Of a stretch of 23,612 nt of DNA, positions 1,660 through 6,941 are shown one piece after another. A program made the position numbers and the translations under genes. A model generated the notes under the pieces. The model was not told the DNA's origin and searched no databases. It saw only the letters and a list, made by a program, of their open reading frames with translations. Every line of letters starts with the position of its first letter. Within the stretch, counting starts at the first letter, position 1. This stretch comes from a virus: the IMG/VR virus record IMGVR_UViG_3300023210_000227, positions 1 through 23,612 of that record; one strand, 5' to 3'.

Positions 1660-2064
1660 TTAAACTCTTTTAATATTTTCAATATGTATAACTGATGCGG
1701 TATAGTCATGCACACAATAAGAGTCATAATCTCCTTCGTTAACATCCCAGTCAACCTCAAAGAATACATTCACATTAACTTCTAAAGTGATGCTGTCATT
1801 TATATAAATATAAATTTCGGGGTAATTATCTTCCCAATAACTGCTATCTAACCAGCAACTATCAAAGTCTATACTCTTCCAAACATTATAAGGACTACTT
1901 CTAAAGTAATTTTCTTGTATCGATTCCCAAATCTCTGCAATTGTGTCATTATCACAGAAGCAATCAAACAAGAATGTTTTCATCTGCTCATCATCTAGAC
2001 TAGATACTTTTATATTGTCAAGCTCATCTACATAAGCTTCACTTAAATCTAAATCGTATTTCAT
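1660..2064 (-). CDS. Highly acidic small protein, possible DNA mimic
   Basis: A 134-residue protein of no family I recognise. The start at 2064 has AAGGAG eight bases upstream. By direct count it has 31 Asp/Glu and only 7 Lys/Arg, a net charge near -24, with acidic residues spread along the whole chain and many aromatics (Trp, Tyr, Phe). It lacks signal or membrane segments. Phage proteins of this size and charge include DNA mimics such as T7 Ocr, which block restriction enzymes and other DNA-binding host proteins, and its place at the promoter-proximal end of the left minus-strand operon would suit an early anti-defence role. This is inference from composition alone; there is no sequence match to Ocr that I can see. 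Confidence 0.6.
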   Translation of the reverse strand: MKYDLDLSEAYVDELDNIKVSSLDDEQMKTFLFDCFCDNDTIAEIWESIQENYFRSSPYNVWKSIDFDSCWLDSSYWEDNYPEIYIYINDSITLEVNVNVFFEVDWDVNEGDYDSYCVHDYTASVIHIENIKRV

Positions 2065-2281
2065 AATTATTCTCCTTTGGTTAATTAACTACATTAAGTA
2101 ATAACTATTAAAATAAAGCTATTATCTAATATAATTTGTCTGCCTTGCAGATTTGAATTATTTTTTAAATATCTTTTAAACTAGCATCATTCGCTAACTT
2201 TATGGTGTAAGAATACTCCATAAAAATTCATAAGTAAAGCTTTTTTTCATAAAATTATTAATAAAATTATTAAACAATTTA

Positions 2282-2313
2282 TTTACTTTGTTAAATTAAT
2301 TGTATACAATAAT
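2282..2313 (+). promoter_or_regulatory. Promoter and operator-like dyad before the gene at 2340
   Basis: TTTACT (2282-2287) and TACAAT (2305-2310), 17 bases apart, form a moderate sigma70 promoter. The -10 box sits inside TTAATTGT-AT-ACAATAAT (2296-2313), matching the dyad at 237-254 in 14 of 16 arm bases; the inner 12 bases are a perfect palindrome. The rest of 2065-2339 is very AT-rich, with two copies of AAAATTATTAA near 2250-2275. No convincing promoter was found for the minus-strand gene at 2064. Confidence 0.5.
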
Positions 2314-2339
2314 CAAGTAAATAAACAAAAGGAAAAAAT

Positions 2340-2528
2340 ATGAGATATAAAAACATGAAAATAGAAGAGCTAGTTGAAATAATAAAGCCACAATATAAAA
2401 GTATTAGCAAAATTGCTTTAGCTTTAGATCTTACAAGAATACAACTTGATTATGCTATGAAAAAAAATAAGATGGAGTACTTAGCTCATATGAGACTTAT
2501 TCGTTTAGTTATTAAACTCAATAAATAA
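2340..2528 (+). CDS. Small helix-turn-helix-like protein
   Basis: A 62-residue basic protein with AAGGA seven bases before its ATG. Residues 12-35 (VEIIKPQYKSISKIALALDLTRIQ) have the look of a short helix-turn-helix: a helix, a turn, then a hydrophobic recognition helix, as in small Cro-like or DNA-binding phage regulators. It is the first plus-strand gene after the divergent control region and its promoter carries the shared dyad, so it may encode the regulator that binds these sites. Its end overlaps the first 67-bp direct repeat by eight bases. No family can be named with confidence. Confidence 0.6.
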   Translation: MRYKNMKIEELVEIIKPQYKSISKIALALDLTRIQLDYAMKKNKMEYLAHMRLIRLVIKLNK

Positions 2529-2587
2529 AACTTACATAAATTAAAAAACATATAAGAATAATGTATTATACTTATTGTTATACAAGT
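2521..2587. repeat. 67-bp direct repeat, copy 1
   Basis: Matches 2921-2987 at 66 of 67 positions (G at 2563 against A at 2963), exactly 400 bp apart. The repeat is AT-rich and contains a minus-strand TATAAT box (2565-2570). Copy 1 lacks a good -35 box on its outer side. The first eight bases are the end of the preceding gene. Confidence 0.95.
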
Positions 2588-2629
2588 GATAGAATATGGA
2601 TATATAAGTGATAGGATATGGATATATAG
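2586..2629. repeat. 22-bp tandem repeat, two copies
   Basis: The unit beginning GTGATAGAATATGGATATAT occurs at 2586-2607 and again at 2608-2629 with two differences. The period is two helical turns, suiting side-by-side protein binding. It abuts the first 67-bp repeat. Confidence 0.8.
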
Positions 2630-2804
2630 CAATGTTATCTATTGGCTAGTTTCTCATGTTGAACATATCATTACTTTAGAGCTGTAACTCTGAAGTAATG
2701 GGCTAAACCTATAATTAATAGATTTCGTACTACTCTACTACTCTAATACATTATACCTTCACTTATATAGATGCTTACCCATAAAAGAAAGGTAAATATC
2801 TATA
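2630..2804. other. Structured intergenic segment with two strong hairpins
   Basis: No convincing ORF covers this stretch. One hairpin has 13-bp arms CATTACTTTAGAG (2669-2681) and CTCTGAAGTAATG (2688-2700) with one G-U pair and a six-base loop. A second has 14-base arms TATAGATGCTTACC (2766-2779) and GGTAAATATCTATA (2791-2804) with one true mismatch. Neither is followed by a U tract on either strand. The second begins at the stop codon of the minus-strand peptide gene and could protect or end its mRNA. Confidence 0.55.
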
Positions 2805-2892
2805 AATAAAAGTTTATAGATGATATTTGTATAGTTACTGATGAAAAAGCAATTAAGCCTAGTATACAGTATGCTATATTTATTTTACTCAT
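2800..2892 (-). CDS. 30-residue single-span membrane peptide
   Basis: A minus-strand frame with a good ribosome site (AGGAG, nine bases before the ATG at 2892). The product starts MSKIN and continues with an uninterrupted hydrophobic stretch (IAYCILGLIAFSSVTIQI) long enough to cross the membrane once. A strong promoter lies about 75 bases upstream in the second direct repeat. The gene occupies a 333-bp cassette between the two 67-bp repeats and is oriented against both neighbours. Size, hydrophobicity, strong hairpins and isolated promoter recall type I toxin peptides, but no antisense RNA promoter could be fixed, so this remains a suggestion. A small lysis or superinfection-exclusion peptide is an alternative. 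Confidence 0.5.
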   Translation of the reverse strand: MSKINIAYCILGLIAFSSVTIQISSINFYL

Positions 2893-2920
2893 AATATTAT
2901 CTCCTAATCAATATAATAAT

Positions 2921-2987
2921 ATAAATAAAACTTACATAAATTAAAAAACATATAAGAATAATATATTATACTTATTGTTATACAAGT
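2921..2987. repeat. 67-bp direct repeat, copy 2
   Basis: Second copy of the repeat at 2521-2587, with one difference. It carries the -10 box of the minus-strand promoter for the membrane peptide; the -35 box lies just outside the copy in unique sequence. Confidence 0.95.
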
Positions 2988-2994
2988 TATACAA
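2965..2994 (-). promoter_or_regulatory. Promoter of the membrane-peptide gene
   Basis: Minus-strand TTGTAT (2994-2989) and a perfect TATAAT (2970-2965) are separated by 18 bases. Transcription would start near 2958 and give a leader of about 65 bases before the ATG at 2892. Confidence 0.55.
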
Positions 2995-3044
2995 TAGACA
3001 CATAAATTAATAAAAAGGTAAACAACAAAAAGGACAGTTAAGAA

Positions 3045-3212
3045 ATGGAAAACAAAAATACTAATACAGAAAGTTGTCATCTAAGAATGACTAAAGGAAT
3101 AAGATATCAGCTTAAACTAATTGCAGCAAAAGAAAATATTGATATGCAAGAAGCTTTGTTGATGATGATTAAGCAGTATGAATTAAACAATAAGAGCAAA
3201 AATATGTTATAA
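3045..3212 (+). CDS. Arc/CopG-like ribbon-helix-helix protein
   Basis: A 55-residue protein with AGGAC ten bases before the ATG. The segment CHLRMTKGIRYQLKLIAAKE followed by NIDMQEALLMMI fits the ribbon-helix-helix plan: a short strand (HLRMT) that would contact the DNA major groove, then two amphipathic helices. Such proteins bind operators as dimers. It sits alone between the repeat-bounded cassette and the initiator gene, and the next promoter overlaps its last codons. It is a likely regulator of the replication region, perhaps acting on that promoter, but no target can be proved. Confidence 0.65.
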   Translation: MENKNTNTESCHLRMTKGIRYQLKLIAAKENIDMQEALLMMIKQYELNNKSKNML

Positions 3213-3213
3213 T
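3205..3213 (+). promoter_or_regulatory. Extended -10 promoter of the replication module
   Basis: TGTTATAAT is a perfect extended -10 element (TG, one base, TATAAT) overlapping the stop codon of the ribbon-helix-helix gene. Transcription would begin near 3220. The same TGnTATAAT element recurs at 7516 and 15383, suggesting a shared promoter type in this phage. Confidence 0.6.
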
Positions 3214-3218
3214 ATACT

Positions 3219-3335
3219 TATCAAATTTATTGATAGCATTGAGTTGAGCCTTTGCTTTCATGTCAGTTTGGGGAGAAGTAATATTTTTTAATATTTACTT
3301 GCTCAACCTCCCCACTTCAATTGGAATATAAAATA
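3219..3335 (+). promoter_or_regulatory. Structured leader RNA with H-type pseudoknot
   Basis: From the predicted start near 3220 to the initiator ATG at 3336 the RNA can fold extensively. A 6-bp hairpin TATCAA/TTGATA lies at the 5' end (about 3219-3235). Helix 1 pairs GTTGAGC (3243-3249) with GCTCAAC (3301-3307). Helix 2 pairs TGGGGAG (3269-3275) with CTCCCCA (3308-3314). The order of strands (1, 2, 1', 2') is a pseudoknot, and the 3' strands abut so the helices could stack. A further hairpin, AAGTAATATT with AATATTTACTT (3276-3300), fits exactly between. The initiator has only a weak ribosome site, so control of its translation by this fold is plausible. No known riboswitch class was recognised. 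Confidence 0.6.
3260..3331 (+). CDS. Possible 23-residue leader peptide before the initiator
   Basis: An ATG in the pseudoknot loop opens a frame running through helix 2, the inner hairpin and both 3' strands, and stops at 3329-3331, four bases before the initiator ATG. The product begins MSVWGEVIFF and is hydrophobic. Ribosomes reading it would unfold the leader. It has no good ribosome site, so it may not be translated. The arrangement resembles repY-repZ control in IncB and ColIb-P9 plasmids, where leader translation and a pseudoknot govern initiator synthesis. Confidence 0.3.
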   Translation: MSVWGEVIFFNIYLLNLPTSIGI

Positions 3336-4127
3336 ATGATAGAAAGTAAATTAGAGGAAAGGGGTATTTTTATTCAATGGTCTGTCTTTAGAAATAAAGA
3401 AACTACATTGAGTGAAAAAGTATTATTCTTAGAAATAAATAATTTATCAATGTTGGATAAAGGTTGTATAGCATCAAATAGCCATTTTGCTGATACTTTA
3501 GGGGTAAAAAAAGAAGCTATTTCAAGGCTTATCTCATCACTAGAAAAAAAAGGGTATATTACTACTAAAATAGTTAATGGAACTAGAAATCATAGCAGAA
3601 TAATAACTATTAACAAAATGTTATCAACCGATAACAAAATGTTATTTAGGGGTAAACAAAATGTTAATACCCCCTTAACAAATTGTTTAGAGACTAAAGA
3701 GAATAAAACAATTAATAAAACAATTAATAGAACAAGTAATAATAAAAGTAAACAAAAAGAATTATGCGAGAGAGTTATATCATATTTTAATTCTAAGACT
3801 GGTAAAAATATAAAAGCTATAGATAGTAACATCAAAATTATACAATCAAGACTTAATGAGAATGAATATACATTTGAAGACTTCAAGTATGTAATTGACA
3901 TTAAATTTGCTGAATGGGTTAATGATATTAAGATGAGCAAGTATATACAGCCAAGCACGCTCTTTGGCAGAAAGTTTGATCAATATCTTAATCAAGATAT
4001 AAATCATATACAACAAGCTCTTGAAAGTGGCTTAATATCTAATTACCAAGTTGAAAATGGCAAAGATATAAATGCTTTTTTTAATAAAGCAGATAATTCA
4101 ATAAAAGGTTTAGATTATGTCAAATGA
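3336..4127 (+). CDS. Phage replication initiator (HTH plus Phg_2220_C-like domain)
   Basis: A 263-residue O-like initiator. The N-terminal third is a winged-helix domain of the HTH_36 type, with a recognition region GCIASNSHFADTLGVKKEAI followed by RLISSLEKKGYI. A polar, low-complexity linker (about residues 90-140) follows. The C-terminal part, from VISYFNSKTGKNIKAI through IKFAEWVNDIKMSKYIQPSTLFGRKF, closely resembles the conserved phage domain Phg_2220_C. The ATG at 3336 is preferred over an in-frame TTG at 3321; neither has a strong ribosome site. It would bind origin iterons and recruit the helicase loader. Four iteron-like repeats and an AT-rich tandem repeat lie within the linker-coding DNA, as the lambda origin lies in gene O. 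It overlaps the next gene by 11 bases. Confidence 0.85.
   Translation: MIESKLEERGIFIQWSVFRNKETTLSEKVLFLEINNLSMLDKGCIASNSHFADTLGVKKEAISRLISSLEKKGYITTKIVNGTRNHSRIITINKMLSTDNKMLFRGKQNVNTPLTNCLETKENKTINKTINRTSNNKSKQKELCERVISYFNSKTGKNIKAIDSNIKIIQSRLNENEYTFEDFKYVIDIKFAEWVNDIKMSKYIQPSTLFGRKFDQYLNQDINHIQQALESGLISNYQVENGKDINAFFNKADNSIKGLDYVK
3612..3689 (+). other. Candidate replication origin: four iterons inside the initiator gene
   Basis: The 12-mer AACAAAATGTTA occurs exactly at 3612, 3633 and 3655, and a fourth copy with two changes starts at 3677. The spacing is 21, 22 and 22 bases, two helical turns, so a protein would meet them on one face of the DNA. Each is an imperfect dyad (TAACA-AAA-TGTTA). 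This matches the plan of the lambda origin, which also has four iterons in the initiator gene. The AT-rich repeat at 3702 follows directly. Confidence 0.65.
3702..3737 (+). repeat. AT-rich 12-bp tandem repeat, likely DNA-unwinding element
   Basis: AATAAAACAATT is repeated at 3702-3713 and 3714-3725, with a degenerate third copy to 3737. It encodes NKTI-NKTI-NRTS in the initiator linker. Its position just after the iterons, and its A-rich strand bias, fit the easily melted region of a lambda-type origin. Confidence 0.6.
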
Positions 4128-4383
4128 TATAGCAGTTGAAAATAATATGAGCAAAGAGCAATTTTTTAAAAGTTGGTCTTTAGCATTAGAAATACTTGAT
4201 AAAAAATTTAGCTCTGATGTTGCGGAGTTTTATTATGAAACATTCAAACATATATCATTTGATAAGTTTAATTTAGCAATAAAGGAAATATTAAGATATA
4301 AGAAATACCCAAGTATACCTTTGCCGAATGAAATATTTTTAGCATTAGGAATTGACAACAATGGTTTTGATGATTGTATTTAA
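4117..4383 (+). CDS. Small helicase-loader-like protein (G39P-type pattern)
   Basis: An 88-residue protein beginning within the end of the initiator gene, with AAAGG nine bases before its ATG. The order of features, a first helix after MSKEQFFKSW, then FYYETFKHISFDKFNLAIKEI, then RYKKYPSIPLPNEIF, fits the all-helical N-terminal domain seen in phage SPP1 G39P and similar loaders, which bind the replicative helicase and bring it to the initiator. Overlap with the initiator gene implies coupled synthesis. The family call is by pattern rather than clear identity, and the protein is shorter than most loaders, so it may act together with the product of 4397-5038. Confidence 0.5.
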   Translation: MSNDIAVENNMSKEQFFKSWSLALEILDKKFSSDVAEFYYETFKHISFDKFNLAIKEILRYKKYPSIPLPNEIFLALGIDNNGFDDCI

Positions 4384-4396
4384 GGAGAAAAATAAA

Positions 4397-5038
4397 ATGG
4401 AAAGAGAACAAGTAAAGCTATTGCTTCAAAAAATAAATGTAGCTCATAATAAGTGCTATGATAAATTCACAAAAGATCAAAAAACTCAATTGATTGATAT
4501 GTTTTTTTCACATCTTAAATATTATGATAATGATGATGTTGAAAAAGCTTTCTATAATTACGAGTCTGAAAATGAATATACCCCTAAACCTGCTCATTTG
4601 AGAAAAGAATTAAATTACATGAATGTAAAGAAAAAGCATTATATCAACGAAAGTAACCATGTTAAACATGATGACTTCGACAAGGTAAGTAGACAATCAT
4701 TGCAAGATTTATTGTTTGATGAATATTGCCCAGTTTTGAAAATGAATATAATGAGTGTTGATGAAAACAAAAGAGATTTTATTTTGTTTAAGGCAAATTC
4801 TACTAGATTATCAACAATTGATTTATTAAATAATATTTGGGGGTATGTATCTGAAGTTAGTGATATATGCAATTACCATATACAAATAGCAATAAACTCA
4901 CTTCGAGGATTTAAATTTACAGTTAAAGAGTTCATGACTGAGTTAATGAGTGCATATGAATTATCTGAGAAGCTAAAAGATGTTAATGTTATGAATAACT
5001 TAAAATCTGAATATATAAAATCTACTGTAAAATCATAA
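4397..5038 (+). CDS. Replication-module protein, possible second loader subunit
   Basis: A 213-residue protein. The start at 4397 has AAGGAG nine bases upstream and is preferred to an ATG at 4352 inside the previous gene. Residues 1-75 again show the helical loader-like plan (FFSHLKYYDNDDVEKAFYNY, then EYTPKPAHLRKEL), resembling the preceding gene and suggesting related domains in tandem. The C-terminal 110 residues are of no family I recognise. A helicase-loading role in the lambda P position is inferred from order: initiator, small loader, this gene, nuclease. There is no visible Walker A motif, so it is not a DnaC-type ATPase. Confidence 0.5.
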   Translation: MEREQVKLLLQKINVAHNKCYDKFTKDQKTQLIDMFFSHLKYYDNDDVEKAFYNYESENEYTPKPAHLRKELNYMNVKKKHYINESNHVKHDDFDKVSRQSLQDLLFDEYCPVLKMNIMSVDENKRDFILFKANSTRLSTIDLLNNIWGYVSEVSDICNYHIQIAINSLRGFKFTVKEFMTELMSAYELSEKLKDVNVMNNLKSEYIKSTVKS

Positions 5039-5049
5039 AAGGGATAAAT

Positions 5050-5400
5050 ATGAAACATGAAGAGCATTATATACAATCAACTTTTGTACAGTGGTTCAGG
5101 TTGAACCATAAAAGGCATATAGTATACGCAGTGCCTAATGGAGATAAAAGGTCGATGTTGACAGCTGTGAGGCTTAAAAAGGAGGGTGTATTGGCTGGTG
5201 TACCCGACTTGCATATATTACTTGATAATGGAAAAAGTTTTTTTTTAGAAATTAAAACCGAAAAAGGAAAATTGAATAAAAATCAAAAATCAACTATTTC
5301 AGAAATAGAAAAAAGAGGGTATGAAGTTTTAGTTTGTTATGGAATTGATGATATAATCAAGCAAGTTAATAATACTATTAATAATTATTTGCAAATATAA
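5050..5400 (+). CDS. VRR-NUC domain nuclease
   Basis: A 116-residue single-domain nuclease of the VRR-NUC group in the PD-(D/E)XK superfamily. Typical features appear in order: EEHYIQSTFVQWFRL at the N-terminus, AVPNGDKRS, then GVLAGVPDLHI with the catalytic Asp, and FFLEIKTEKGKLNKNQ with the Glu-x-Lys pair. Stand-alone phage members of this length are thought to cut branched DNA such as flaps or Holliday junctions. It ends the plus-strand replication module, 11 bases after the previous stop, with AAAGGGA as ribosome site. Substrate specificity cannot be read from the sequence. Confidence 0.85.
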   Translation: MKHEEHYIQSTFVQWFRLNHKRHIVYAVPNGDKRSMLTAVRLKKEGVLAGVPDLHILLDNGKSFFLEIKTEKGKLNKNQKSTISEIEKRGYEVLVCYGIDDIIKQVNNTINNYLQI

Positions 5401-5427
5401 ATATATTTTGTATATCGTAAATTAATT

Positions 5428-5489
5428 ATCAACTTTTGCTATTTTTTTGGATAAAGTATCAATAAGCTTATATAAAGCTAAAGGTTGAT
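5428..5489. terminator. Convergent intergenic region with weak inverted repeat
   Basis: The stretch 5401-5612 separates converging genes. Its only clear structure is an ATCAAC (5428) / GTTGAT (5484) inverted repeat, extendable with T/A pairs but with a long AT-rich interior. It may end transcription from both sides, but it is not a textbook terminator. A stop-free minus-strand frame (about 5427-5555) without an ATG may be a gene remnant. Confidence 0.2.
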
Positions 5490-5612
5490 TAATAATCTTC
5501 AAACCATACAAAGACTTACATATTGAATAAAAATTCGGTGAGGGTGCCTTAAAAGTTATTTAAAGTATATTCTTGATAGGTATTTTGATTGGATTTTTTA
5601 TACAAAGGAATA

Positions 5613-6596: not shown

Positions 6597-6941
6597 CTAT
6601 CGCAAGTACTTGCTGTTATTGCAGTTATAGCAGTCATAGCAGTCATAGCATTTATAGCATTTATAGCATTTATAGCAGAATTTGCAGTATTTGCATTTAT
6701 AGCAGTATTTGCAGTTAAAGCAGTTAAAGCAGTAATTGCAATCATTGCAGTCTTTGCATTTACTGCAGTCTTTGCAGTTAAAGCAGTTAAAGCAGTTAAA
6801 ACAATCAATGTTACTTTTATTGTCTTTTTTAGCTAAATTAAGATCGCCATCATAGTATTTATTAAGATGGGATTGAGTAACTCCATTCTCGCCTACATTT
6901 TTATTTTCTTTGTAATCTCTGTAATCTTTAAATACTCTCAT
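6597..6941 (-). CDS. Protein with 21 consecutive C-x-x triplets
   Basis: A 114-residue protein, with AAGGAC before the ATG at 6941. Residues 1-46 form a polar domain shared with the next gene (GENGVTQSHLNKYYDGDLNL). Residues 47-109 are 21 unbroken C-x-x triplets (CFN, CKD, CYK, CYD and similar) with x drawn mostly from Tyr, Phe, Lys, Asn and Asp; a short tail SKYLR ends it. Such regular cysteines could bind metal ions or form a ladder of disulfides along a three-residue-pitch or beta-solenoid fold. I recall similar repeats in scattered phage and bacterial proteins without known function. A different frame over the same DNA gives an Ala/Thr-rich ORF, which is a shadow. Confidence 0.75.
   Translation of the reverse strand: MRVFKDYRDYKENKNVGENGVTQSHLNKYYDGDLNLAKKDNKSNIDCFNCFNCFNCKDCSKCKDCNDCNYCFNCFNCKYCYKCKYCKFCYKCYKCYKCYDCYDCYNCNNSKYLR
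6615..6803. repeat. Nine-base-related repeat array encoding C-x-x triplets
   Basis: The DNA is built from short units such as AGCAGTTAT and AGCATTTAT, giving one cysteine codon every nine bases on the minus strand. Groups of identical neighbouring units (for example CYK three times, CFN three times) suggest recent growth by slippage, so copy number may vary between relatives. Confidence 0.85.

Follow-up and report, generated by a model that had tools for sequence, protein, structure and literature searches.

In the window, by which we mean the whole stretch of DNA analysed here (an AT-rich phage record of 23.6 kb with 29% GC), a leader of about 120 nt begins at an extended -10 promoter and lies between a 55-aa ORF and a replication initiator gene. 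What does this leader do for the phage? Our analysis points to a probable small RNA switch, employed at two places, by which lytic genes are restrained. The features on which the argument turns are as follows.

3045–3212, plus strand: 55-aa Arc-like (ribbon-helix-helix) ORF, from the ORF list; weak match to the phrog_582 Arc-like repressor (E 0.004)
3184–3213, plus strand: leader promoter, TAAACA - 18 nt - TATAAT with a TG extension, from a consensus scan
3219–3235, plus strand: dyad TATCAA-ATTTA-TTGATA at the predicted transcript start, from alignment with L001 and the second leader
3243–3249, plus strand: segment a', 5' strand of helix S1, GUUGAGC; read from the sequence and compensated in the second copy
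3260–3331, plus strand: 23-codon leader frame, from the sequence and the second-copy comparison
3269–3275, plus strand: segment b', 5' strand of helix S2, UGGGGAG; read from the sequence and compensated in the second copy
3276–3300, plus strand: hairpin P3, embedded in the pseudoknot, from the fold and the alignment
3301–3307, plus strand: target a, 3' strand of S1, GCUCAAC, from the sequence
3308–3314, plus strand: target b, 3' strand of S2, CUCCCCA, from the sequence and a scan
3322–3327, plus strand: putative weak Shine-Dalgarno-like site of the initiator, TGGAAT, from reading the sequence
3336–4127, plus strand: replication initiator of 263 aa, with a winged-helix N-terminal part and Phg_2220_C (phrog_428, 1e-41; Pfam Phg_2220_C, 1e-22, and HTH_36)

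An interlocked fold between promoter and initiator

The leader promoter combines the -10 element TGTTATAAT (3205–3213) with TAAACA (3184–3189), together a 10/12 match to the sigma-70 consensus in the scan, and the stop codon of the Arc-like ORF overlaps this -10. Promoter-like sites also occur on the minus strand near the initiator start (e.g. 3450–3422), the total number of sites being 39, not far from the 32.4 of shuffles. Downstream of the initiator are a small ORF, a helicase-loader-like gene and a VRR-NUC nuclease gene. Within the initiator gene itself, three iteron-like repeats (AACAAAATGTTA...) are found at 3612–3683 with spacings of 21 and 22 nt, and to judge from these repeats the stretch is likely a replication origin.

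The initial annotation had described two perfect 7-bp helices in the leader, and both are exact: 3243–3249 (GTTGAGC) is the reverse complement of 3301–3307 (GCTCAAC) in S1, and 3269–3275 (TGGGGAG) is that of 3308–3314 (CTCCCCA) in S2. The helices interlock as an H-type pseudoknot with loops L1, L2 and L3 of 19, 25 and 0 nt, so that the 3' strands are contiguous. A third hairpin, also annotated, occupies L2 exactly, with 10 bp and one bulge in the predicted fold, and a' lies mostly within the loop of a weak hairpin. The knot is placed, as had been described, between the extended -10 promoter and an initiator gene with a weak Shine-Dalgarno-like site; 21 nt separate the end of target b from the initiator AUG. 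Two further points concern the start of the initiator gene. The plain fold hides the start codon, and the L1 stretch 3250–3258 is complementary to initiator codons 3–5 (3342–3350) over 9 bp with one G-U, a complementarity absent from the second copy described below.

How often would such a fold arise by chance? The nested fold of the leader, computed with no knot, is unremarkable in stability (z -1.26). When the 117-nt leader was shuffled 20,000 times with its dinucleotides preserved, 27 of the shuffles contained a perfect 7+7 knot whose 3' strands are contiguous; any perfect 7+7 H-type knot was present in 146 of 5,000 dinucleotide-shuffled leaders. Contiguous 7+7 knots numbered 2.78 per shuffled whole AT-rich window, mostly with AT-rich helices. 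Under a GC-richer criterion, the window and its relative yielded only the leader copy and its relatives, vs 0.1 in simple local shuffles. Taken by itself, the fold is thus suggestive but falls short of proof. Since knots are not rare across the whole shuffled AT-rich window, where a knot lies and what bases compose it both count, and the comparison with relatives is the real test.

A second, compensated copy in a related phage

Searching with the initiator brought up a single near relative, G001 (IMGVR_UViG_3300048504_000503; 37,957 bp), whose early region for the most part matches the window at 90–98%. Its counterpart of the window leader is identical, the whole pseudoknot included, except inside the transcript-start dyad. 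This identity over ~100 nt is uninformative because the block diverges by only ~2% overall. The packaging and structural genes of the two phages are unrelated (terminase phrog_2 vs phrog_38; L016/L017), and the shared early region beside unlike structural genes reflects module exchange, presumably between phages of one host.

A second leader is present in G001 at 2718–2832, with the -10, the dyad and the knot in the same order as in the window. The promoter stretch TATAATATAnTTATCA recurs ahead of it. In the alignment, the half-sites of the dyad are kept between the copies and the length of the spacer differs; the dyad TATCAA/TTGATA may be a 5' RNA hairpin or an operator. The second-copy knot (L016 2754–2816) has loops L1, L2 and L3 of 21, 15 and 0 nt, and its target ends 15 nt before the AUG. 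S1 reads GTTAGAC/GTCTAAC there vs GTTGAGC/GCTCAAC in the window, and S2 reads TGGGGTG/CACCCCA vs TGGGGAG/CTCCCCA. Of the 14 base pairs, the two copies differ in 4; both partners have changed each time, and pairing is complete in the second copy as well. By simple arithmetic, counting which 4 of the 14 positions changed and the correct base each time, coincidence would give four compensated pairs about once in 1001 x 81, or ~1 in 80,000. Only two distinct leader copies were present in the material searched. With all 14 pairs intact in a compensated second copy, the pairing is under selection as judged from these changes, and the exact helices and the compensated copy together confirm the pseudoknot. 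The loop hairpin P3, by comparison, is unrelated between the copies in sequence and length, being 15 nt long in the second.

These data bear on two simpler accounts of the helices. One is chance complementarity passed on by duplication. The frequency of contiguous knots in shuffled whole windows speaks for it, but four pairs have changed on both sides with none broken since duplication, and few shuffled leaders (the 27 above) hold such a knot; we regard it as very improbable. The other places the element at the level of DNA, with the inverted repeats serving as operator or origin sites and no RNA pairing involved. Both copies do share the dyad at their transcript start, and iteron-like repeats lie nearby within the initiator gene. 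However, two interlocked 7-bp pairs with compensated changes fit RNA better, as operators should share sequence, and the pairs sit between promoter and AUG in both copies, which leaves this account very improbable.

Behind the second copy lies a different operon. A 117-aa ORF without known function comes first, followed by the antirepressor gene ant, whose product matches phrog_63 (1e-52) and carries AntA and ANT (KilAC) domains. With an antirepressor operon behind its second copy, the element is not confined to the control of replication copy number. The two copies are also predicted to differ in how far their strands can be exchanged. Predicted duplex energies of a' with a are -9.0 and -7.0 kcal/mol for the own pairs and -0.6 and 0.0 kcal/mol for the cross pairs; those of b' with b are -11.9 and -11.7 vs -8.5 and -8.1 kcal/mol. 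On these predicted energies, a' would be a copy-specific segment and b' a common anchor. The two leaders thereby offer a natural orthogonal pair for asking which segment sets specificity.

Known leader RNAs and a model of control

The initial annotation had compared the leader with the RepY/RepZ leaders of IncB and ColIb-P9 plasmids, the latter of type IncI-alpha. The likeness that stands is an H-type pseudoknot immediately 5' of the initiator ribosome site; the leader-peptide model finds no support. A 23-codon frame does cross the fold and end 4 nt ahead of the initiator ATG at 3336, as annotated, and it indeed has no good ribosome site, for no Shine-Dalgarno sequence precedes it. In the second copy its ATG is replaced by ATA. 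With neither a Shine-Dalgarno sequence nor a kept start codon, translation of a leader peptide is not among the conserved traits of the element, and we judge the frame incidental. The window leader differs from RepY/RepZ in this respect and in that an element of its type also serves an antirepressor. As for an antisense RNA from the opposite strand, no gene was identified, the signals observed being the minus-strand promoter-like sites mentioned above. A RepY/RepZ-like mechanism, with translation of the 23-codon peptide melting or permitting a knot that then activates initiator translation, would draw on the course of the frame through the fold, its stop 4 nt before the ATG and the knot adjoining the initiator ribosome site. 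Set against the missing ribosome site, the ATA start, and an antirepressor rather than an initiator behind the second copy, it appears very improbable.

To our knowledge, few systems of RNA control in phage lysis-lysogeny have been well described (c4 of P1/P7 and CI of P4). C4 is a stable, trans-acting RNA of ~77 nt processed by RNase P. P4 CI works through premature transcription termination. The b' segment of C4 covers part of the ribosome site, and specificity comes from a' (PMC5320573). Processing of an untranslated transcript yields the P4 CI RNA, which blocks expression of the P4 replication genes (PMC4825925).

The layout of the window leader is closer to phage P1 c4 than to RepY/RepZ, although, with no Rfam match and the opposite segment order, it is not a C4 member. 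In the c4 RNA of P1 (NC_005856), b' stands at offset 36 and a' is found at offset 50. A gap of 3 nt separates this RNA from target a2 (7 nt); target b2 (8 nt) comes next and ends 10 nt before icd, which precedes ant. The window element likewise is the leader of an early phage operon, has two short segments a' and b' complementary to a target beside a ribosome site (7+7 bp in both copies), and has that target starting close behind the RNA. On predicted energies, a' is specific and b' common to the copies, as in C4, and the second copy lies ahead of an antirepressor operon that opens with a small ORF, comparable to c4-icd-ant. The differences are equally clear. The window order a', b', a, b crosses, whereas the c4 order b', a', a, b nests; a and b are contiguous in the window but 22 nt apart in C4; the predicted window fold is a hairpin, a linker and a hairpin, unlike the closed three-stem fold P1–P3; and the window's own copy precedes a replication initiator. 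The earlier statement that the leader matches no known RNA family was borne out, as no Rfam family matched it at the gathering score. C4 (RF01695) gave no match in the window or the second copy, with the P1 c4 control scoring 68.8 bits against a cut-off of 45. The leader was unmatched by c4-a1b1 (RF03163), and sRNA-Xcc1 (RF02221) had no match in the window.

With P4 CI the leader shares a likeness of layout: both are structured leader RNAs of phage replication genes, and in both a single transcript contains segments complementary to one another. Unlike CI, it has no intrinsic terminator; the only terminator-like site in the scanned interval 2000–5600 is at 4210. CI-type attenuation is thus not indicated, and translation is the likelier level of control.

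We therefore favour, at roughly even confidence, a self-pairing RNA that has been duplicated and regulates early lytic genes in this phage family, in which a'b':ab pairing would gate translation of the initiator and Ant. The segments a' (3243–3249) and b' (3269–3275) would pair with the contiguous 14-nt target ab (3301–3314) just 5' of the initiator ribosome site, in cis as the pseudoknot and perhaps in trans as well, by way of a leader RNA released by processing. The paired state may hold the initiation region of the downstream gene repressed, with activation as the other possible sign. The phage would thereby limit replication and antirepressor synthesis in lysogeny or early infection, in parallel with c4 RNA acting on ant in P1 and CI RNA acting on P4 replication genes. 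We infer these regulatory steps from anatomy and analogy. Some observations sit less well with the favoured model. The distinct copies number only two; the target ends 15–21 nt upstream of the AUG, where the ribosome footprint has its margin, which counts against the model; masking the knot strands in folding did not clearly alter access to the start region; and, because the segments cross, an RNA processed from the leader would not make one continuous duplex with the target.

A purely cis-acting knot switch, formed or melted by a ligand, a phage protein or transcription speed with no trans-acting RNA, is the other RNA reading, and we think it possible but unlikely. With the crossing order and the zero-length L3, the H-type knot is compact, forms within one molecule and encloses a hairpin; both helices covary, and no processing signal is known. 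Autoregulation by the initiator would have a parallel in T4 gene 32 protein. Yet a ligand or protein site should show conserved unpaired nucleotides, of which there are few; L2 and P3 are unrelated between the copies, no Rfam riboswitch matched, and the proteins of the two operons are unrelated, a point against autoregulation by a single product.

Returning to the self-pairing regulator, we tentatively suggest, with less than even confidence, that it represents a new class of RNAs for phage immunity or timing. Such an RNA would be a knotted leader that targets itself through two segments and serves twice in one genome, with orthogonal a'/a pairs gating initiator and antirepressor separately. 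A compact leader that holds regulator and target together, twice per genome with re-matched pairs, suggests that such controls have originated repeatedly.

Distant relatives, further searches and neighbouring sequences

At 38–50% identity, homologues do keep the initiator without both helices, a situation that the initial annotation had raised against its own reading, yet each of them has another structured leader. These alternative leaders are mutually conserved and stand before the same initiator gene.

L081, 2868–2985: alternative leader
L082, 2841–2960: alternative leader
L084, 2381–2505: alternative leader
L003, 2703–2820: alternative leader

In these leaders, a segment Y (GCGUCCAAC, GUGUCCAAGC and variants) can pair with Y'' upstream, inside a 14-bp hairpin. 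Its alternative partner, Y' (GUUGGACGC, GCUUGGACAC and variants), lies downstream in a loop. Covariation is seen between Y and Y', and the pairings of Y with Y'' and with Y' are both kept through sequence change across the four leaders. Pairing is also retained in the inner hairpin GUCC../..GGGC, with 6 additional pair types. The alternative leader looks like a two-state switch and is probably an undescribed RNA family. No such leader was found when that of L081 was compared by blastn with phage and plasmid records, and no Rfam family matched in L003, L002 or larger stretches containing them. It resembles the window leader in the gene controlled, the embedded hairpin and the two crossing complementarities, but has no evident sequence similarity to it and differs in its contiguous 5' strands (L1 = 0), its long L3 and its two alternative folds. 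A different structured leader at the same gene in distant relatives suggests wide leader-RNA control of this initiator gene.

Further copies of the window leader were sought in several ways. Pattern scans of viral contigs (leader core; dyad plus helix core; promoter plus dyad; b'/ab core) returned no copy beyond G001, an initiator search of genome contigs gave one distant Clostridia match, and blastn of the leader against phages gave short, weak matches only. L079 shares the promoter and the dyad but has only a terminator-like hairpin. A crossing pair upstream of Ant in L054 was rejected as a third member, as it belongs to an sRNA-Xcc1 RNA, and was treated as chance, being lost in other sRNA-Xcc1-like copies. 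An HDV-like ribozyme reading of the leader was also set aside, because S1' and S2' abut and leave no room for the catalytic cytosine of J4/2.

The sRNA-Xcc1 RNAs, best known from Xanthomonas integrons, were encountered in phage contexts here. Rfam matches to RF02221 were obtained in L054 (1902–1988 and 2144–2229) and in the record of L056; L089 and L092 are further loci of this kind, and blastn found similar sequence in Haemophilus phage Aaphi23 (L095), Escherichia phage Rac-SA53 (L097) and Pasteurella phage Pmp3 (L098). These RNAs lie directly upstream of antirepressor or Ant-like genes, a position that suggests sRNA-Xcc1 to be a c4-like phage immunity RNA.

Elsewhere in the window, 76-nt direct repeats 400 nt apart (2521–2996) enclose non-coding sequence. 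A strong hairpin lies there at ~2668–2699, and a short tandem repeat in this region has one extra unit in G001; a second regulatory RNA or an origin region is possible there. On the minus strand at 6597–6941, a cysteine-rich tandem-repeat ORF (NCFNCFNCKDC...) was observed, with a shorter relative in G001 (L017 10723–11022, minus strand).
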